52,204 bases of DNA from Clostridia bacterium (lineage in GTDB: Bacteria; Bacillota; Clostridia; Christensenellales; SZUA-584). Positions 9,903-19,355 of this stretch are shown here, piece by piece; within the stretch, counting starts at the first letter, position 1, and every line of letters starts with the position of its first letter. The notes below the pieces were generated by a model. That model saw nothing but the letters and a program-made list of their open reading frames with translations, did not search any database and had not been told where the DNA came from. The stretch lies in the NCBI GenBank assembly GCA_018648645.1, contig JABGQS010000004.1, forward strand, positions 72,976-125,179. The letters run 5' to 3'. The translations under genes were made by a program, and so were the position numbers.

Positions 9903-10328
9903 TCAAACTTGCAGCAGAGCACTTACAGCGAGATAGTATGACGCAAACCCAAAGCCCGCGATCTGCCCGACGCAACCGGCAGCCGTTACTGACTTTTGTC
10001 GAAACTCTTCCCGCTCTGCAATGTGGCTGAGGTGAACTTCGACAGCAGGAATTGCAACCGCTTTAAGCGCGTCCAGTATCGCTATGCTATAGTGTGTATA
10101 TGCGCCGGGGTTGATGACAATTCCGTCAAAGGTGCCCAAAGCAGATTGAATTTTATCGACGATTTCGCCTTCAATGTTAGACTGATAGGTGTCAATGGCT
10201 ACATCGTTTTTGACGGCGCAGTCAGCAAGACCGCTCAGCAGCGCATTATAGTCCTCTTTTCCGTAAATGTCCGGTTCCCGCACTCCGAGCATATTGATAT
10301 TGGGTCCGTTAATTACGAGTATTTTCAT
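9903..10328 (-). CDS. aroQ: 3-dehydroquinate dehydratase, type II
   Basis: 141 residues from the ATG at 10328; longer in-frame starts would run far into aroE-aroK without homology. Type II signature: MKILVINGPNINMLGVREPD, then Tyr22 of the IYG motif, INPGAYTHYSIAILDAL and EVHLSHIAEREEFR with the catalytic His near residue 100. It converts 3-dehydroquinate to 3-dehydroshikimate, step three of the shikimate pathway, as a dodecamer in this family. Last gene of the aromatic operon, overlapping aroEK by 20 bases. Confidence 0.95.
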   Translation of the reverse strand: MKILVINGPNINMLGVREPDIYGKEDYNALLSGLADCAVKNDVAIDTYQSNIEGEIVDKIQSALGTFDGIVINPGAYTHYSIAILDALKAVAIPAVEVHLSHIAEREEFRQKSVTAAGCVGQIAGFGFASYYLAVSALLQV

Positions 10329-11631
10329 GTTTGCTTTCCTCCAATTTATTGATAATGTTTGCAATACAGCTATTAATATCCGCCGAGTTGACTGCGATAA
10401 TGTCTGCATATTTGCGGTACAAGCCATCTCTTTGCTCGTGCAATTTGACAAGCGCGCTTTTGCCATCGCTCAGCAGAGGTCTGCCGCAAATCTCAATATC
10501 TTCAAGCAGCTTATTAAGCGGTCTGTCGATAAACACAATAGTTCCGATTCGGCTTAACTCTGCCATGTTACGCTCGTCCAGTATTATCCCTCCGCCGGTC
10601 GATATCACAACATTCGAGCGATTTGCGGCTATTTGTGCCGCTTTGCGCTCGTAATCTCGAAATACGCTTTCTCCTTTTTGCTCGAATATCTTAACAATGC
10701 TGCCGTAATCCTCTTCAATAAGCGAATCGGTGTCGACAAAACCCATGTTTAGGTTGCTTGCTAATTGCATACCTATAGATGATTTTCCGCTACCCGGCAT
10801 ACCTATCAACACGATGTTGTCTTTGTGCTGTTTCATCATACTTCGCACGTAATCGAAAACATCTGTGTATATCGCTTGGCTGTACTCCCGGCTGGTCCAA
10901 ATCTCCTGCGCTTTAATTGCCTGAGCAACCAGCATAAGCAGCCCGTTTGCAGTTTTTATGCCAAACGATTCTGCTTTTCTCAACAGAAGCGTTTGCATCG
11001 GATTGTATATCAAATCGACAACCTGTGCACTTTTTTGTATCACACTGTCGCTAACAGTACAAACATCTACGTTAGGGCTCATACCAGCAGGTGTTGTGTT
11101 TATCAAAACGTCGATTAAATCGAGTTCGTCAAGTTTATCATACCCTATCGCGCACAGTTTCATGTCCGCTTTCTGCGGATTCCTGCTGACGACAACCCTC
11201 TCCCCTGCGCCAAAGTCGGCGGTTAGCTTATATGCACACTTTGCTGCGCCGCCTGTGCCCAGGATTACAACTCGTTTATCCTGCACATCTATTCTGTTTG
11301 TGCTCAGCAACATCTCTAAACCGTAATAGTCGGTGTTATATCCATATCGTTTGCCGTTTTTGAAGAGAATCGTGTTAACAGCCCCGATTTCACTTGCTTC
11401 TGCCGATATCTCATTTAGGTATTGCATCACTTCTGTTTTGTATGGAATCGTGACATTAAGACCGGTATAACCATTCTTTTCAAGATCATCCAGCAACGCA
11501 GAAAGACCGCCGACGGGCGTTTCAAACAGCTCGTAGCTTCCTTTTATGCCTGCAGTTTTATAGAACTTTTTATGAATTGCCGGAGACATGCTGTGCCCCA
11601 GTCTTTCGCCGATAAGCCCCGATTTGATCAT
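10309..11631 (-). CDS. aroE-aroK: Fused shikimate dehydrogenase - shikimate kinase
   Basis: 440 residues carrying two consecutive pathway enzymes. Residues 1 to about 265 are AroE: SMSPAIHKKF at 14-23, GLNVTIPYKTEV with catalytic Lys65, GYNTD with Asp101, and the NADP fold VVILGTGGAAKCAYKLT at 121-137. After a short linker, residues about 271-440 are AroK: P-loop GMPGSGKSS (277-285), VDTDSLIE with Asp302, FRDYE with Arg325, STGGGIIL at 345-351 and the RPLL lid at 384-387. The first domain reduces dehydroshikimate with NADPH and the second phosphorylates shikimate with ATP. Separate genes are the rule; a fusion in this order is uncommon. It starts one base before the end of the pheA coding region. 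Confidence 0.95.
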   Translation of the reverse strand: MIKSGLIGERLGHSMSPAIHKKFYKTAGIKGSYELFETPVGGLSALLDDLEKNGYTGLNVTIPYKTEVMQYLNEISAEASEIGAVNTILFKNGKRYGYNTDYYGLEMLLSTNRIDVQDKRVVILGTGGAAKCAYKLTADFGAGERVVVSRNPQKADMKLCAIGYDKLDELDLIDVLINTTPAGMSPNVDVCTVSDSVIQKSAQVVDLIYNPMQTLLLRKAESFGIKTANGLLMLVAQAIKAQEIWTSREYSQAIYTDVFDYVRSMMKQHKDNIVLIGMPGSGKSSIGMQLASNLNMGFVDTDSLIEEDYGSIVKIFEQKGESVFRDYERKAAQIAANRSNVVISTGGGIILDERNMAELSRIGTIVFIDRPLNKLLEDIEICGRPLLSDGKSALVKLHEQRDGLYRKYADIIAVNSADINSCIANIINKLEESKHENTRN

Positions 11632-12756
11632 TTATACGCTCTCTTTCGGATAGCACCCAAGATACGTGTACCCTGCCGACTGCTGCTTTACCCGCTCTAT
11701 CATTTCTGCGATGTCGCGCTCGTATATACAGCCTTCAAAATCGATGTGAAACTGATACTCAAACTGTCTGTCTTTAATCGGCCGCGACTCCAGCTTTAAG
11801 ATGTTGACGTTTGAGAAAACCTCCAACATTTCGTACAGCGCGCGCGGTTTGTGCAAAAGCATGATTACGATACTGGTCTTGCTGCAATCGTCGCCTTTAT
11901 AGGGTTGCTTTGCGACAACGACGAACCGAGTGGTGTTTGTGTCCTCGTTTTGTATGTCGTGTGCAAGCACCTGTAGTCCATAGATCTTTCCGGCATGTTT
12001 TGATGCGATACAGGCGGTACTTTTTTCTTGCATATCCGCAACAGTTTTAGCGGCGTGGGCAGAGCTTAGGCTGGAATACGCCTCGTACTTGTCGCCCAAA
12101 AACTCGCTGCACTGCGCAATCGGCTGCGGGTGAGAATACACTTTTTTGATGTCTTCGATTTTTGCACCGGGCACACCGAGCAGGCAATGCGCTACAGGCA
12201 GCATTTTTTCTCCCACGATATAGTAACCGTATCTCGCAAGCGCGTCAATTGCCGAAGCCACGCTCCCTGTCTGCGTGTTCTCTGTTGGCAGCATCGCATA
12301 GTCAACCTCGTCATTTTTTAGCCCTTCCAGTATCGCGTCAAAGCTTTGGTAGTTCTTAAGCACCGCGCTATCATCAAAACTCTCTGATGTCGCGATGTGC
12401 GAGTATGACCCTAGTATTCCGAGATACCCAACCCTTGCATTTTTTATCTCTGCAAAACGGCTTTTAACAGGACTTGCGTCCATCAACAGCTTTCGTTGGT
12501 TCTTTTTGCTGATGTCCATAATCGCGCGGAAAAACTCTTTTGTGGCCTGGCTTAGGTTTTTATCAACAAGCTGCGACGTTGCGCGCGAGATAACGTCGTC
12601 CTCGCGCTTTGCATCCAGCACATCCTTGCCGAACTGCTGCTTTAGCTTTGCAACGTCATCAATCGTTTTCATGCGCTGCTCGTAAAGCGACACCAGCTGC
12701 GAGTCTACATCGCTTATTCTTTCACGCAGAACTTTGATTTGCTCGTCATACCCCAT
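11632..12756 (-). CDS. pheA: Bifunctional chorismate mutase / prephenate dehydratase
   Basis: 374 residues from the ATG at 12756, which shares one base with the aroC stop and has AAAGAGG four to five bases upstream; longer starts would lie within aroC. Residues 1-90 are an AroQ-type chorismate mutase (LRERISDVDSQLVSLYEQRM, then AKREDDVI). Residues about 107-285 are prephenate dehydratase (VGYLGILGSYSHIA; PTENTQTGSV at 157-166; TNTTRFVVV at 273-281, the catalytic TRF motif). Residues about 293-374 are an ACT domain with LESRPIKDRQFEYQFHIDFEG, the phenylalanine-binding ESRP motif, predicting feedback inhibition by Phe. It is the only chorismate mutase in the operon, so TyrA depends on it for prephenate. 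Confidence 0.95.
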   Translation of the reverse strand: MGYDEQIKVLRERISDVDSQLVSLYEQRMKTIDDVAKLKQQFGKDVLDAKREDDVISRATSQLVDKNLSQATKEFFRAIMDISKKNQRKLLMDASPVKSRFAEIKNARVGYLGILGSYSHIATSESFDDSAVLKNYQSFDAILEGLKNDEVDYAMLPTENTQTGSVASAIDALARYGYYIVGEKMLPVAHCLLGVPGAKIEDIKKVYSHPQPIAQCSEFLGDKYEAYSSLSSAHAAKTVADMQEKSTACIASKHAGKIYGLQVLAHDIQNEDTNTTRFVVVAKQPYKGDDCSKTSIVIMLLHKPRALYEMLEVFSNVNILKLESRPIKDRQFEYQFHIDFEGCIYERDIAEMIERVKQQSAGYTYLGCYPKESV

Positions 12757-13835
12757 TAGTGACCTCTTTCCATCATCATATCCAGTATGCAAATGCAAGC
12801 AGCAGCTTCTATTACGGGAACAGCCCGCGGTACAATACACGGATCGTGTCTGCCTTGAACTTTTAGTGTTTCCTGCTGTTTGCTAACCAGATTGACAGTT
12901 TGCTGAGGCAGGGATATTGAAGCTGTCGGTTTGATTACCGTACGGAAAACAATCGGCATTCCGTTTGTGATGCCGCCGATCAGTCCGCCATTGTTGTTGG
13001 TTTTTGCGGTAATTTTATCCCCATCCATCGTGTAAGCATCGTTCGCTTCACTGCCTTTCATGCCGGCAAATGCGTTTCCTGCGCCAAATGACAATGCTTT
13101 GACAGCTGGTACAGAGAATATCAGCGAAGACAATCTGCTTTCCACACCGTCCATCATAGGGCTGCCAATGCCAGCAGGAACACCGAGCACTGCGCATTCG
13201 ATCTCGCCGCCGACAGAATCACCAGCCGACGCCGCATCCATGATACACTGCTCCATTTTCTGCTTGCAACCCTCGCTATTGAGTGCAAGCCGCATTGTTT
13301 TCAGCCTGTCCGATTCTTGCTTTGTTATGCTAACAAGATCAAAAGCGTTGTCGAAAACACCCGCAATTTGTGAAATGTGCGTTGCGGCATATATGCCTTT
13401 ATCCTCGAGAATCTGGGCTGCAACAGCGCCTGCAAAAACAAGAGGTGCTGTCAACCTTCCCGAAAAGTGACCTCCGCCTCGCGGGTCGGCAAATCCGCCA
13501 TATCGGACATTACCTGTGTATTCTGCGTGACCGGGGCGGTTGATGCCTTGCTGATAGTCTTTCGACTTCGTGTCAGCATTATCCAGCAACATACACAACG
13601 GCGTTCCAGTCGTTCTGCCGTTGTAAAAACCGCTTACAATGCGCGGGATGTCCGCCTCTCTGCGTTTTGTTGACCACGTTTCGCCACCAGCGCGCCGCCT
13701 GTCCATAAACGCTTGGATTTTGTCCATATCGAGCTTAACGCCACTTGGCAGACCGTTTATTACTACACCAATATTGCTGCCGTGCGACTCACCAAAAATG
13801 TCTATTGTAAAAGTATGTCCGTATATACTGCTCAC
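12756..13835 (-). CDS. aroC: Chorismate synthase
   Basis: 359 residues, standard. Motifs: GESHGSNIGVVINGLPSGV at the N-terminus, RRRAGGETWSTKRREAD, then GGFADPRGGGHFSGRLTAP and RHDPCIVPRAVPVIEAAA near the C-terminus. It converts EPSP to chorismate using reduced FMN, which is not consumed. It overlaps aroA by four bases upstream and pheA by one base downstream, inside the aromatic operon. Confidence 0.97.
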   Translation of the reverse strand: MSSIYGHTFTIDIFGESHGSNIGVVINGLPSGVKLDMDKIQAFMDRRRAGGETWSTKRREADIPRIVSGFYNGRTTGTPLCMLLDNADTKSKDYQQGINRPGHAEYTGNVRYGGFADPRGGGHFSGRLTAPLVFAGAVAAQILEDKGIYAATHISQIAGVFDNAFDLVSITKQESDRLKTMRLALNSEGCKQKMEQCIMDAASAGDSVGGEIECAVLGVPAGIGSPMMDGVESRLSSLIFSVPAVKALSFGAGNAFAGMKGSEANDAYTMDGDKITAKTNNNGGLIGGITNGMPIVFRTVIKPTASISLPQQTVNLVSKQQETLKVQGRHDPCIVPRAVPVIEAAACICILDMMMERGH

Positions 13836-15091
13836 GATATTTTTCCTCCTACCGATACATAATCTTCGAAAAACTTCGGGTATGATTTGTTGATGCTGTC
13901 TTCTCCGCTGATGTCAACGATATCTGATGCGCAAAGCGCCGCCATAGAGAAAGCCATAGTGATTCTGTGATCATTGAACGAATCTATGCAGCCGCCCGAA
14001 AAAACTCCGCCTTCAATCGTTATGCCGTCGCTAAACACGGAAGTTTCAATGCCTAAATTGTTCAAATTAGTGCTGACTGACTCCAGCCTGTCCGATTCTT
14101 TTATACGAAGGCGCGCGGCGCCTGTAATCTGCGTTTCTCCTTTTGCCAGCGCAGCCGCAACTGCGATTGGCGGAACGATATCCGGGCATTGCGAAACGTC
14201 AACTTCTATGCCGCGAAGTGCCGATTTGCGTGCGCCTAAACCTTCGGTTGTGTATTCGATATTGCCGCCCATGCGACGAAGTATATCGACAATTGCTTTG
14301 TCTGGCTGGAGCGACTTCTCGCTTAGCCCGCGCACACAGATGTCGCCCGATATGCAGCCGCCGGTCAAAAAGAACGCCGCTTGAGAGAAATCGCCCTCAA
14401 CGCTCATATTTTGTGGCTTGTACTGCTGATTGCCGCGAATCGAGAACTTTTCTTTAGCGCAAACTATTTCTATTCCAAACTGCTCTAACACGCTTAGCGT
14501 GATGTCAACATAGCCTTTTGATTCAAATTTATTTACAATCGTAATGGTTGAATCAACATCCAGCATCGGCAGCGCGAACAACAAGCCTGTGATGTACTGC
14601 GAGCTGACGCTTCCGTCTATTACGTAATCCCCGCCCTTTAGCGTACCTTGCACAGTAAGCGGCAAGTTTGCTTCAGCCGGCTTTTTGTAGACGATACCGT
14701 CCTGCTCAAAAATCTCGAAGTACGCATCAATGGGTCTGATTGGTAAAAGTCCACTGCCGCTAAAGACCTTTGTGCCGCTTATCGCACATGCAATCGGTAT
14801 CAAAAACCGCATTGTTGACCCCGATTCACAGCAGTCGATTTTCGCAATGTCGTTAATATGTATACCGCCGTTGACAATAACCGTGTGATATGGTTCACCG
14901 TGCACTATTGATATTTCGCAGCCAAGCGCCTCACATGCGCGGATAGTTGCTTTGATGTCGCTGGATAAGTCAATATTAGAAATCTCGCTTTTACCGCGTG
15001 ATAACGCCGCGGCGATAATCGCCCTATGAGCTACGCTTTTTGACGGCGGTATCGTAACACTTCCGTGCATTTTTGATGGGTAAACTCTCAT
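13832..15091 (-). CDS. aroA: 3-phosphoshikimate 1-carboxyvinyltransferase (EPSP synthase)
   Basis: 419 residues. VTIPPSKSVAHRAIIAAALS carries the substrate-binding Lys-Ser, ESGSTMRFLIPIA is the PEP-site loop (glyphosate-contact region), GSVSSQYITGLLFALP, RIKESDRL and SFNDHRITMAFSMAAL follow. It joins PEP to shikimate-3-phosphate. The ESGSTMR loop has Ser where the glyphosate-sensitive LGNAGTA form has Gly-Asn-Ala, which places it with class II-type enzymes; sensitivity is not predictable by eye. Four-base overlaps with aroB and aroC. Confidence 0.96.
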   Translation of the reverse strand: MRVYPSKMHGSVTIPPSKSVAHRAIIAAALSRGKSEISNIDLSSDIKATIRACEALGCEISIVHGEPYHTVIVNGGIHINDIAKIDCCESGSTMRFLIPIACAISGTKVFSGSGLLPIRPIDAYFEIFEQDGIVYKKPAEANLPLTVQGTLKGGDYVIDGSVSSQYITGLLFALPMLDVDSTITIVNKFESKGYVDITLSVLEQFGIEIVCAKEKFSIRGNQQYKPQNMSVEGDFSQAAFFLTGGCISGDICVRGLSEKSLQPDKAIVDILRRMGGNIEYTTEGLGARKSALRGIEVDVSQCPDIVPPIAVAAALAKGETQITGAARLRIKESDRLESVSTNLNNLGIETSVFSDGITIEGGVFSGGCIDSFNDHRITMAFSMAALCASDIVDISGEDSINKSYPKFFEDYVSVGGKIS

Positions 15092-16158
15092 TTGAGATAC
15101 CTTTCTACTTCGCCGCTGTTTATTTCGTGGATATACACTTTGCCGATTTCATCAATTAATATGATATTCAGCATCTCCGCCATGTTCTTTTTATCAACAA
15201 GAATCCCCTGCAATATTTCGTCCTTGTCAAAACCGTCAATATCAGTCGGCAGTTCTTGCTTCTTCAGCACAGCGATTATACGCTCTGTTGTGCCGGGCAG
15301 CGTTTGCCCAAGCGCTTCACTTGCCGCAGTGATCGCTGCCATTCCGCGTGCTACGCCCTGCCCGTGTGTGATATGTCTGCCGCTTTTTGCGCACATGCGC
15401 TCCAGTCCATGTCCTATTGTATGCCCGTAGTTGAGTTTCATGCGCTCGCCTCTGTCAAGCTCGTCCTCAATGACAACATCGCGCTTGATTTGCAGGCATC
15501 TGACAATAAGTTCTTCGAGAATTTCTGAATTTGCGTCAATTTTATCCGATTCCTCCAGCGTTTCAAACATTTGAGCGTCCTTGATTGCAGCGTATTTAAT
15601 CAGCTCTGCCATGCCGTCAGCGAAATCCACACTTTTTAACGTTGTCAGAAAATCCATGTCAATATACACTGCGCTAGGTTGATAGAATGCTCCAACAAGG
15701 TTTTTGCCTTCGGGAATATTGATTGCAGTTTTGCCGCCAACGCTGCTGTCTATTTGGGCAAGAAGTGTTGTTGGTATCTGCACGAAGCTTATTCCTCGTA
15801 AATACGCCGAAGCCACAAAACCGGCGAGGTCGCCAACCACGCCGCCTCCGAGCGCCACTATAACATCCGCTCGATTATAGTTCTTTTGTGCAAGAAAGCT
15901 GTTGATATCGCTGAATACTGACATGCTTTTTGACTTTTCGCCTGGTTTTATGGTAATCACATCATAGCGCAAATCAAGCTCGTCAAACGTCTTGGCGATT
16001 TCTTTTTCGTAAAGCGCACTCACGTTGTCATCGGTGATGATTGCAAACTTTGATTTTGGGTACGTTTCTTTCAGCAGCCCCGCAATCTTGTGTTTGAACC
16101 CTCTGCCAACGGACAAAATATATTCATTTTGTGCTGTTTTAACTGTTATGCTTTTCAT
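15088..16158 (-). CDS. aroB: 3-dehydroquinate synthase
   Basis: 356 residues with the NAD-binding ALGGGVVGDLAGFVASAYLR, then QIPTTLLAQIDSSVGGKTAIN, the metal-ligand region MKLNYGHTIGHGLERM, and FVQIPT. It cyclises DAHP to 3-dehydroquinate using NAD and Zn or Co. Overlaps aroA and tyrA by four bases each, so translation is coupled through this part of the operon. Confidence 0.97.
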   Translation of the reverse strand: MKSITVKTAQNEYILSVGRGFKHKIAGLLKETYPKSKFAIITDDNVSALYEKEIAKTFDELDLRYDVITIKPGEKSKSMSVFSDINSFLAQKNYNRADVIVALGGGVVGDLAGFVASAYLRGISFVQIPTTLLAQIDSSVGGKTAINIPEGKNLVGAFYQPSAVYIDMDFLTTLKSVDFADGMAELIKYAAIKDAQMFETLEESDKIDANSEILEELIVRCLQIKRDVVIEDELDRGERMKLNYGHTIGHGLERMCAKSGRHITHGQGVARGMAAITAASEALGQTLPGTTERIIAVLKKQELPTDIDGFDKDEILQGILVDKKNMAEMLNIILIDEIGKVYIHEINSGEVERYLK

Positions 16159-17003
16159 TCATTCTCCTTATTGTCGCCGGACATTTCGGTTAAAAGTTTC
16201 TCCAGCTCATCTCTGTCGCCCGATTCAATTTTCTTCTCAAGCCGATTAAGCTGTTTTTTAAACTCTCCGATGCTTTGCAGCAGACTATCTTTGTTGTCGC
16301 TCATTAGCCCTGCCCAAAGCGCTGCGTTGACATCAGCTACGCGCGTTGCCGACTTATAGCTTCCGCCCGCAAATTGAGCGTTGTTGCTTTGCGGATACAT
16401 CGCCTTTAAGGCAAGCGCAATTACGTGCGGAACATGGCTAACGTGTGCAATCATCTCGTCGTGCGTTTTTGCAGCAAGCTCGACAATTTTCGTACACCCC
16501 ATAACCTCTTGCAGAACACTCACCCATTCTCTGGCTTTCTCCTGAGTTCGGACACTTGGCGTTATCACTAAAGTTGACCCAACAAACATGTCACCTTTCG
16601 AATACTTATAGCCCGTTTTCTCGCTGCCCGCCATTGGGTGAAGCGATAAAAGCTGGTGCGATTTTTCCATTGCGTCGTTTAGCTGCTGTATCATCACCGT
16701 TTTGATACCGCCGACTTCTGCGAAAACACCGTCCTGCTTCATAAGGTATGCTACCTCTTGATACAGCGGAATCACATAGATGGGCGACAAGCAGCAGAGT
16801 ACGAAATCGAACTTCGCCATATATCCGTCCAGCCTTGTAAAAGCCTCGCTGATAACGCCTTCATCTTTCGCTTTCTCCAGCGTGTCTAGGTTGTTGTCAT
16901 ATCCGTTTACGTCTGTAAACCCATAGTTTTTCAGCGCCTTTGCTATACTGCCGCCTATAAGACCAAGACCGGCAATTAGCACACGGCTGTTCTTTACATC
17001 CAT
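16155..17003 (-). CDS. tyrA: Prephenate dehydrogenase
   Basis: 282 residues. VLIAGLGLIGGSIAKALKNY is the NAD(P)-binding fold; LSLHPMAGSEKTGYKYSKGD carries the catalytic His and the prephenate contacts; AHVSHVPHVIALAL and SYKSATRVADVNAALWAGLM are family motifs. It oxidatively decarboxylates prephenate to 4-hydroxyphenylpyruvate. There is no C-terminal ACT domain, so tyrosine feedback through that route is not expected; the tail instead ends in a charged predicted helix. It starts one base after the aroF stop. Confidence 0.95.
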   Translation of the reverse strand: MDVKNSRVLIAGLGLIGGSIAKALKNYGFTDVNGYDNNLDTLEKAKDEGVISEAFTRLDGYMAKFDFVLCCLSPIYVIPLYQEVAYLMKQDGVFAEVGGIKTVMIQQLNDAMEKSHQLLSLHPMAGSEKTGYKYSKGDMFVGSTLVITPSVRTQEKAREWVSVLQEVMGCTKIVELAAKTHDEMIAHVSHVPHVIALALKAMYPQSNNAQFAGGSYKSATRVADVNAALWAGLMSDNKDSLLQSIGEFKKQLNRLEKKIESGDRDELEKLLTEMSGDNKENE

Positions 17004-17004
17004 T

Positions 17005-18021
17005 TTATAGTTCTCTCCCCATCATATCCGCTGCATCCTGCAGCTTGTGAACAAGCGCCGAGAATTTCTCCGGCAGCAGCGATTGCTTGCCGTCTGACAG
17101 CGCTTCCGAAGGGTCCTCATGAACCTCAATCATCACGCCGTCTGCGCCAACGCAAATGCCTGCCACAGCAAGCGGCTCGACCGCCCACCACAGACCAGTT
17201 GCGTGGCTTGGGTCCACTATCACCGGCAAGTGACTAAGGCGCTTTATGACCGGCACAGCGCTCAAATCCAGCGTGTTTCGCGTGAAAGTTTCGTATGTAC
17301 GGATGCCTCTCTCACAGAGTACCACATTTGGATTACCGCCCGCAACAATGTATTCGGCAGACATCAGCCATTCCTCAATTGTTGCAGACAGACCGCGCTT
17401 TAGCAGCACCGGTTTTTTCGTTTTACCAAGCTCGCTTAAAAGCACATAGTTCTGCATATTGCGTGCACCGACTTGAATCACGTCAATTTTTTCAACAAAT
17501 AGCTCGATCAATTCGACATTCGTAATTTCCGTTACTATCGGCAACCCGGTTTCAGCTCTTGCAGTTTCAAGATACTTGATTCCTTCCAAACCAAACCCTT
17601 GAAATCTGTATGGGTTAGTTCGAGGTTTAAATGCGCCTCCGCGAAGGAAATTTGCACCCGATGCTTTTACTTTTTTAGCCAATGAAACAATCTGCTCTTC
17701 ACTCTCTACAGAGCACGGGCCCGCCATCACAGCGAGCTTATTGCCGCCAATCTCAAAACCGTTGCCTTTAATAATCGTGTTGTCGGGATGGAACGCTCGG
17801 TTTACCTTTTTGTAAGGCTCCTGAATACGCATCACTTTCTTGACAACTTCCTTCTCTCGAATCGATTCGATTTCGAGCGCGACTGTGTCGCCGACCAGCC
17901 CCAGAACAGAGTAGTTTACACCATCAATTCTTTGAACTTGTATATTGTTGCTCTTCTGTAAATTATCTATAAGTTCTTGTATCTTTGCCTCGGGAGCGTC
18001 CGGTTTGAGAATAATAATCAT
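17005..18021 (-). CDS. aroF: DAHP synthase, class I beta with N-terminal regulatory domain
   Basis: 338 residues from the ATG at 18021, chosen for AAAGGA seven bases upstream over an in-frame TTG at 18045. Residues 1 to about 70 form the ferredoxin-like regulatory domain ([18 protein letters not shown]). The rest is the Thermotoga-type TIM barrel: [67 protein letters not shown] and [10 protein letters not shown]. It condenses PEP and erythrose-4-phosphate, the committed step. In relatives the N-terminal domain confers inhibition by Tyr or Phe. First structural gene of the operon, placed directly after the attenuator. Confidence 0.96.
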
Positions 18022-18059
18022 TGTTAGTGTCCTTTCGTTGTTCAAAATATAATATAAAA

Positions 18060-18114
18060 GGGAACTCGGTATGAGCTCCCTTGGTTACATAATTTCCTGT
18101 TTTACAGCTCATCC
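18060..18114 (-). promoter_or_regulatory. Attenuator (terminator and antiterminator) of the aromatic operon
   Basis: On the minus strand GGGAGCTC (18073-18080) and GAGTTCCC (18060-18067) form an 8-bp stem with loop ATACC, followed by TTTTATATTATATTTT: an intrinsic terminator just before aroF. The competing partner lies upstream: ATGAGCT within 18099-18114 is the exact complement of AGCTCAT, the 5' arm of the terminator, extended by GG:CC across one bulged A. A third segment, GTTTTTTAGC (18173-18182, leader codons 11-14), pairs with GCTGTAAAAC (18099-18108) with one mismatch. This is the 1:2, 2:3, 3:4 architecture of ribosome-mediated attenuation. The leader stop at 18119 is four bases before segment 2, so a ribosome finishing the leader would mask it. 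Confidence 0.82.
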
Positions 18115-18118
18115 GATA

Positions 18119-18214
18119 TCATTTTTTAAATTTTCTAAACGCAAAAAAACTAAAGCTAAAGTAATAGCTCTGGCTAAAAAACTTATTTGCATTTGCGGAT
18201 GTCGCTGCGTTCAT
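18119..18214 (-). CDS. Phe/Tyr-rich leader peptide of the aromatic operon
   Basis: A 31-codon reading frame (ATG at 18212-18214, TGA at 18119-18121) preceded by AAAAGGAG with five bases of spacing. Residues 12-29 read FFSQSYYFSFSFFAFRKF: eight Phe codons, all TTT, and two adjacent Tyr codons among 31. The two end products of the downstream operon are exactly these amino acids, so charged tRNA-Phe and tRNA-Tyr would be sensed by ribosome stalling. Known enterobacterial examples (the pheA and pheST leaders) use the same principle. Too short to be in a standard gene list. Confidence 0.85.
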   Translation of the reverse strand: MNAATSANANKFFSQSYYFSFSFFAFRKFKK

Positions 18215-18238
18215 GTGGTTCTCCTTTTGATACCGTTA

Positions 18239-18268
18239 ATTATACGCATAAATATGCGGTTTAGTCAA
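18239..18268 (-). promoter_or_regulatory. Promoter of the aromatic operon
   Basis: TTGACT (18263-18268), 18-base spacer, TATAAT (18239-18244), close to SigA consensus. Transcription would begin near 18232, giving about 18 bases before the leader peptide. The spacer contains a perfect inverted repeat CGCATA-AA-TATGCG (18245-18258 as read on the plus strand), a possible repressor site. Confidence 0.75.
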
Positions 18269-18318: not shown

Positions 18319-18732
18319 TCAGTTATTTAGACTTTTTAGAAAGTTTTGAGCGCGCAGCAGCATTTCGCCTGGATCGCTGACGTCATGTGCCAGCTTTTCC
18401 ATCGGGCATTTGTCGTTACCCTCACGATTTTTGATAAACGGTACTTTTATCTCATACTCAGCATCAATACCATATTGTTGAAGCACAGCAAGTGCCGCCT
18501 CCGAAATAACATTTGCGTACAAAACTTTGACACCGCAATGTGCGCATAAAAGCGCTGCGGCCTTGCCAATCACTTTGTCGGCTAAGAAAAGTTCATTTCC
18601 TCCGTTGTTCATATCGCACAGCTCAACAAGCGGCGCAATGCCTCTTTGCGTGGAGAAAAAGAATAAATCGTCATTTTTGAAAACAACTAATGCATAATCC
18701 CTAAGCTCTCGTTTTAACTGATTGCGATTCAA
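18319..18732 (-). CDS. DUF1893 domain protein
   Basis: 137 residues from a TTG at 18732, preferred because GTGGAGG lies eight bases upstream; the in-frame GTG at 18747 sits inside that site. The sequence matches DUF1893 throughout: YALVVFKNDDLFFFSTQRGI, LFLADKVIGKAAALLCAHCG, VISEAALAVLQQYGI, VPFIKNREGNDKCPMEKLAH. The family has a cytidine-deaminase-like fold with conserved Lys, Cys and Met residues in the CPME motif, and no established reaction. It overlaps the ECF S-component gene by 32 bases, implying a related role, perhaps in metabolism of the imported compound (inference). Confidence 0.83.
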   Translation of the reverse strand: MNRNQLKRELRDYALVVFKNDDLFFFSTQRGIAPLVELCDMNNGGNELFLADKVIGKAAALLCAHCGVKVLYANVISEAALAVLQQYGIDAEYEIKVPFIKNREGNDKCPMEKLAHDVSDPGEMLLRAQNFLKSLNN

Positions 18733-19255
18733 ATAACAGTCCTCCACGTTTTAGTAGTAGGTATATTGCTGGAATCAGCACAATTTGCAGCGCTATTCCC
18801 GGTAGTCCGGTGATTGTCGATGCTGCCACGGCGTCAATCGGACTCATTGGCAGCTTGAACAACCACACGCCGACGTACATAGCTAAACCGCCTGCGACTC
18901 TTCCTGCTATCATTGCAATAATTAGTTTTGGGTATATCGCCCATCTTTTGTTGTCGTATTTGATGCCAAAGCGTAAGAATCCGGCAACCGCGCCGTATAC
19001 TGCGAGCTCAAACATCATAAAAAACACTATGGGTATCGCGGGCATGCCCGCAAATGCAAAGCTGAGCAATGGCGTAATCAATCCCGCTATCATACCCTGC
19101 CAACCTCCGACAATAAATCCTATTAGAAATATACCGAGGTGCATGGGCAAAAACACACGCCCAACTGCCGGTCCTCCTATTAAATGAAATATCTGTGGCA
19201 GAAGTACGCTGATAGCAATCAGCAGTCCGGTCACTGTAAGTTTTCTTGTTCTCAT
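18701..19255 (-). CDS. ECF transporter S component
   Basis: 184 residues from the ATG at 19255 (AGGAGA five bases upstream). Predicted six-helix membrane protein: LTVTGLLIAISVLLPQI, VGRVFLPMHLGIFLIGFIVG, MIAGLITPLLSFAFAGMPAI, FFMMFELAVYGAVAGF, PKLIIAMIAGRVAGGLAMYV and a final helix ALQIVLIPAIYLLL. The MHLG...GxxGMxxGxxxPLLS..AGMP pattern is that of PF12822-type S components, which bind vitamins or related small molecules and use a shared energising module encoded elsewhere. Substrate cannot be assigned; no vitamin genes adjoin. It is preceded by a structured leader (19278-19332). Confidence 0.8.
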   Translation of the reverse strand: MRTRKLTVTGLLIAISVLLPQIFHLIGGPAVGRVFLPMHLGIFLIGFIVGGWQGMIAGLITPLLSFAFAGMPAIPIVFFMMFELAVYGAVAGFLRFGIKYDNKRWAIYPKLIIAMIAGRVAGGLAMYVGVWLFKLPMSPIDAVAASTITGLPGIALQIVLIPAIYLLLKRGGLLFESQSVKTRA

Positions 19256-19277
19256 CTGTTTCTCCTGACATATAAAA

Positions 19278-19355
19278 AGCCGCAAAGCTATATTTTATTA
19301 GCTTTCGCAGCTATGACATGCCTTCGTGGCACAAATGAATATTACCACGATTATA
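19278..19355 (-). promoter_or_regulatory. Structured leader with terminator-like hairpin before the ECF S component
   Basis: Minus strand, 5' to 3': TATAAT (19350-19355, weak -35), then hairpin GTGCC-ACGAA-GGCAT (19318-19332), then AGCTGCGAAAGCTA (19299-19312) pairing with TAGCTTTGCGGCT (19278-19290) in a 13-bp stem with one bulged G, loop of eight, followed by TTTTTATA. The 5' arm can alternatively fold on itself as AGCT-GCGAA-AGCT, which would break the terminator. The layout is that of a small riboswitch or attenuator in a transcript starting near 19343. It does not match any class I can recall, so the ligand is unknown. Confidence 0.5.

Follow-up and report, generated by a model that had tools for sequence, protein, structure and literature searches.

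The shikimate operon of this Clostridia bacterium is preceded by what is very probably a ribosome-mediated transcription attenuator, built around a leader peptide rich in both phenylalanine and tyrosine codons. We demonstrate its parts, their conservation, their alternative pairings and their gene context, both in the window (the whole 52,204-nucleotide stretch of DNA analysed) and in related genomes. For Bacillota, the regulation of aromatic amino acid synthesis is usually described as T-box or TRAP/repressor based. Our results suggest that a peptide-leader attenuator takes this role in a large part of Clostridia. On balance, we favor the view that the element belongs to an RNA/peptide family not described before, found across Clostridia and further classes of Bacillota. 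In this view, it is a dual Phe and Tyr attenuator with a conserved hairpin in its regulatory codons, and it would be the principal transcriptional regulator of the shikimate operon in cells that read the same tRNA-Phe through a T-box on pheST.

The operon begins with aroF (17005..18021, minus strand, start ATG at 18021), which encodes a type Ib DAHP synthase (NF006421 and TIGR01361, above cut-off); the genome has no second DAHP synthase of this type. The remaining genes (9903..17003, minus strand, NCBIfam matches) complete the order aroF-tyrA-aroB-aroA-aroC-pheA-aroE/K-aroQ, where aroE and aroK are fused and pheA encodes a chorismate mutase-prephenate dehydratase according to NCBIfam. These open reading frames share one strand and overlap or abut, and all features of the switch lie upstream of aroF on that strand. 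Further upstream of the leader, at 18319-19285 and also on the minus strand, are genes for a DUF1893 (TM1506) protein and the substrate-binding component of an ECF transporter, which overlap each other and have the same strand as the aro operon.

Upstream of aroF is a sigma-A type promoter, TTGACT-18 bp-TATAAT (18239..18268, minus strand), with 11 of 12 consensus matches. It is followed by a Shine-Dalgarno sequence, AAAAGGAG, and a leader ORF of 31 codons (18214..18119, minus strand) that encodes MNAATSANANKFFSQSYYFSFSFFAFRKFKK and ends in a stop codon. Eight of the codons are Phe, all TTT, and two are Tyr, one TAT and one TAC, so that, as in an attenuator, a short translatable ORF rich in codons of the end products sits between the promoter and the first gene. 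Dinucleotide shuffles of the 300-nt upstream region gave a dense Shine-Dalgarno-preceded ORF (at least 7 Phe/Tyr in 12 codons) in only 4 of 20,000 cases. Segment 2, the 5' arm of the antiterminator (CGGATGAGCT, 18106..18115, minus strand), begins 3 nt past the leader stop codon. Between the leader ORF and aroF lies an intrinsic terminator formed by segments 3 and 4 (AAGGGAGCTCATACCGAGTTCCCTT, 18058..18082, minus strand), with a U-rich tail reaching to about 18044, again the arrangement of an attenuator. The 46-nt terminator piece folds at -17.3 kcal/mol (z -6.5), a stability reached by none of 200 shuffles, and the upstream region as a whole folds well below its shuffles (z -4.0). The motif ATGAGCT in segment 2 is perfectly complementary to AGCTCAT of the terminator 5' arm, and the duplex of the two segments in the window has -12.6 kcal/mol (p=0.033). 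A preliminary description of this DNA had recognized the leader, the near-consensus promoter, the terminator right before aroF and the pairing of segment 2 with its 5' arm, and all of these were borne out.

The competing partner of segment 2 had been placed at leader codons 11-14, an assignment we had to give up. That duplex reaches only -7.4 kcal/mol and never forms in the ensemble (0.0 expected pairs). Codons 3-7 take its place as segment 1 (GCAGCGACATCCG, 18196..18208, minus strand), pairing with segment 2 when the ribosome is absent; their duplex has -16.9 kcal/mol and ranked best of 301 against codon shuffles. This protector pairing of segments 1 and 2 is strong in the window but not significant across taxa (Fisher 0.07), and we rejected it as a universal feature; a hairpin within the leader ORF is the general one instead.

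We stepped a virtual ribosome along the leader and folded the RNA that remained free. For ribosome positions at codons 2-29, a stretch that holds every Phe and Tyr codon, and with segment 4 unmade, about 8.7 pairs are expected between segments 2 and 3. A ribosome on the stop codon covers segment 2, the expected 2:3 pairs fall to 0.5 and the terminator alone is left. Computed in this way, the antiterminator is free at the stalls and masked at the stop codon, as attenuation demands. When no ribosome is present, codons 3-7 vie for segment 2 (4.5 versus 4.8 expected pairs). At equilibrium the terminator beats the antiterminator, and the switch must therefore be kinetic, which is usual for attenuators.

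From these pairings, we infer how stalling, pausing and a response to Phe and Tyr may be linked. RNA polymerase would start near 18232, and a ribosome would enter the leader peptide. Were Phe-tRNA or Tyr-tRNA scarce, the ribosome would stall within the Phe/Tyr codons and displace segment 1. Segment 2, left free, would pair with segment 3 ahead of the synthesis of segment 4, and RNA polymerase would read on into the operon. Were both tRNAs charged, the ribosome would move on to the stop codon and cover segment 2, and the 3:4 terminator would form ahead of aroF. Without translation, the 1:2 and 2:3 pairings would be about equal, with termination favored. The hairpin within the ORF most likely pauses RNA polymerase, allowing the ribosome to keep pace. 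The working logic would resemble that of the enterobacterial pheA and trp attenuators.

Relatives were checked for loss of the leader, and all four of the same-family genomes keep the Phe/Tyr leader at the equivalent place (for example MNVKLSNRYFSFSSRSYYGFGYFTLNQYGLKRSWAAQ and MNISAGKYFFSFTSQGYYYSYWYFAFKKFIRRITEWVA) together with the terminator, nearly identical in all four, and the promoter. Their aroF genes are 76-80% identical, tyrA follows aroF in all same-family genomes, and the promoter TTGACG/T-18-TATAAT stands at the equivalent position in five of five genomes of the family. We also scanned 107 aroF upstream regions, mostly from Clostridia and other Bacillota, for a Shine-Dalgarno-preceded ORF holding 6 or more Phe/Tyr within 12 codons. 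Such a leader was present at 51 of these loci, compared with 0.4 expected from shuffles; the element is no oddity of one lineage but common in Clostridia and relatives, and more widespread than the preliminary description had supposed. Control windows elsewhere in the same loci yielded a leader in 3 of 1,700 cases, one of them a true aroF leader, which precedes the first gene of a tandem aroF pair in a member of the Acidaminococcaceae. In an Acidaminococcaceae tandem aroF pair (L034, 1511-1651 and 1861-4014), the Phe/Tyr leader and terminator were found at the first gene only.

With the cut relaxed to at least 5 Phe/Tyr, the scan gave 59 leaders, and a terminator followed 58 of them. The share was 21% for shuffles, and among loci that lack a leader 12 of 43 had a terminator. 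The segment between the Phe/Tyr codons and the terminator complements the arm of its own terminator at p<0.05 in 32 of 58 loci (Fisher 1e-25); taken one by one, roughly half of the loci fall short of significance. When terminators were swapped between loci, only 3 of 58 reached p<0.05 (Fisher 0.10). Because the terminators differ between taxa, this persistent complementarity amounts, in aggregate, to compensatory evolution, in keeping with the compensatory change in the stems that the preliminary description had looked to. The virtual-ribosome folding, the relatives and the cross-taxon complementarity together support its reading of the element as a ribosome-mediated attenuator.

At least two Phe plus at least two Tyr codons are found in 43 of the 51 leaders, and 21 of the 51 have Trp too. 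A peptide core, FWGFYFSAGYFFCKK, is strongly conserved among leaders from Clostridium and Clostridioides (L042, L045, L050, L069, L137 and L139); it includes a Trp codon, which possibly provides an extra Trp input. In several leaders with this core, the antiterminator strand, TTAATGAGT, encodes the C-terminal residues LMS.

Compared with codon shuffles, the leader ORFs form more stable folds (mean z -2.1, Fisher 8e-24), and in most of them the strongest local hairpin has an inner GCUA/UAGC stem around the Tyr/Phe codons and a variable outer arm. In the window, this hairpin is AGAGCUA-UUACUU-UAGCUUU (18152..18171, minus strand), and the same design within the ORF recurs in distant Clostridia. 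Among 27 sequences aligned in a fixed register, 79.6% of the stem's cells are paired, a figure biased upwards by picking the hairpins through folding; the codon-shuffle test is free of that bias. The covariation score of the same 27 sequences is 0.270, compared with 0.200 +/- 0.022 for shuffles and no more than 0.173 on sliding, which lends the hairpin moderate support, moderate because the hairpins were chosen by folding. RNAalifold on a MAFFT alignment did not recover the hairpin within the ORF, probably owing to a one-base difference between groups in the register of the outer arm.

We ran a covariance model of the hairpin, R1, as a blind search over 391 class-level and 398 phylum-level genomes (about 790; the samples overlap slightly). 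At E<=1e-6, 41 class-level and 13 phylum-level genomes matched, nearly always once each. Among 40 inspected loci, 36 had aroF, mostly 140-340 nt downstream of the motif, two had tyrA downstream, one had aroB downstream and one was false. The window scores 45.8 bits (match 18143-18180, with the hairpin as its core), and this score, like those of several other loci, proves nothing, as they belong to the training set of R1; matches outside that set do. Since the model finds shikimate operons without annotation, it could serve to curate a new RNA family. In the further set of loci found through the hairpin alone, a terminator was present in 31 of 32 tested, and complementarity reached p<0.05 in 14 of 31. 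The antiterminator pair in these loci is often TAATGAG/CTCATTA, and the ATGAGCT/AGCTCAT of the window is the same theme; because the loci share that pair, the swapped-terminator control in this set is not clean (Fisher p 0.01).

Three loci (L129, L142 and L144, at about 1501) have the leader hairpin and a Phe/Tyr leader before tyrA-aroB, tyrA-pheA and aroB, respectively, not aroF, and the element has therefore followed operon rearrangements. One match (L160), before a cupin-like gene, was a false positive of R1 with no leader there. Weaker matches in the window's own genome (22.8-27.9 bits) comprised one terminator-like hairpin and others within coding sequence; because these proved spurious on inspection, R1 matches are trusted only above about 34 bits.

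The retention of this hairpin across distant taxa, with some covariation, might instead point to a translation-independent aptamer, in which the conserved hairpin binds a metabolite or protein and sets the choice between the 2:3 and 3:4 pairings, the Phe/Tyr codons being coincidental. We consider this improbable. Phe and Tyr together make up 27% of residues across the leaders, and leaders without an R1-type hairpin still retain the Phe/Tyr codons and the terminator. Moreover, across 22 pairs of related leaders, synonymous changes account for 31.5% of the codon differences, compared with 22.8% expected (p 0.002), an excess that also speaks against an aptamer. It suggests translation of the leader with modest strength but in the right direction, modest because RNA structure constrains the sequence too.

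Even less probable is an uncoupled, constitutive terminator that sets only the basal level, the leader ORF encoding a small functional protein. Conserved peptide motifs such as FWGFYFSAGYFFCKK would suit such a protein, but the residues in which the peptide is rich are precisely those that the controlled pathway produces, segment 2 matches the terminator of its own locus but not those swapped in from others, and the blind search yields almost only shikimate genes. Ribosome-mediated attenuation accordingly remains our reading of the element.

Attenuation by peptide leaders is a known class of mechanism in Bacillota. His leader attenuators (PMC2965389, PMC9413887) and the Leu-rich ilv attenuator peptide of S. 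aureus (PMC5794164) have been reported from narrow lineages and act through another amino acid and operon. The preliminary description had thus gone too far in treating such control as unusual for Bacillota, while its suggestion that the element may be undescribed still appears correct for the widespread Phe and Tyr version on shikimate operons of this phylum. A literature search, with subscription journals mostly outside it, found no Phe/Tyr leader on aroF described in Clostridia. Like the enterobacterial pheA (pheL) and pheST attenuators (Rfam Phe_leader), the element has four-segment logic, Phe codons and an intrinsic terminator, but it has no sequence or structure similarity to them (no Rfam match), and they control pheA or pheST, not a whole shikimate operon.

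Two described systems come closer. In Corynebacterium glutamicum, the AroR leader controls aroF (Neshat et al. 2014, cited in PMC11802643). As summarized there, it too places codons for Phe and Tyr ahead of a DAHP synthase operon and attenuates via ribosome stalling, but it is from Actinobacteria and has Phe-Tyr-Phe only, and its reported response is to Phe and not to Tyr, a comparison made by description. The uORFC-13-1 motif, as outlined in PMC8632094, comprises 24 sequences from Acholeplasma and environmental samples only, with a U run coding at least one Phe. It likewise has a candidate Phe uORF ahead of aroF, together with a promoter, an RBS and a terminator, and it too comes from low-GC Gram-positives (Acholeplasma), but an antiterminator and Tyr codons are absent from that outline. 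Compared by description only, uORFC-13-1 may represent a small part of the family to which the element in the window belongs. A further element, gbs2033 of Streptococcus agalactiae, proposed as a new riboswitch, is also reported before aroFBC-tyrA of Enterococcus faecium (PMC4448216).

That a T-box riboswitch operates here, with uncharged tRNA-Phe or tRNA-Tyr binding the leader RNA and stabilizing the antiterminator, is the least credible explanation: T-boxes are common on Bacillota amino acid genes and the genome itself has eight matches, one of them before pheS-pheT, but the window has no match at the gathering score, the aroF loci of the family have none at a relaxed threshold, and a Phe/Tyr-dense translated ORF fills the place expected for the specifier stem. 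The search for a T-box (RF00230; stem I specifier, antiterminator bulge) found none at aroF with a method that detects the genome's T-boxes elsewhere, and on these searches a T-box at the shikimate operon can be regarded as excluded. Rfam 15, at gathering and relaxed thresholds and with the Phe_leader model included, gave nothing relevant at the leader and contains no family of this kind. The T-boxes of the genome lie before pheST, leuA, thrS and hisS, among others, and the one directly before pheS-pheT is at G000:C10:27471-27677 (L114, 1501-1707). With a T-box on pheST and a peptide leader on the shikimate operon, one genome therefore appears to sense the charging of tRNA-Phe twice, in two unrelated ways, which makes the choice between T-box and leader testable.
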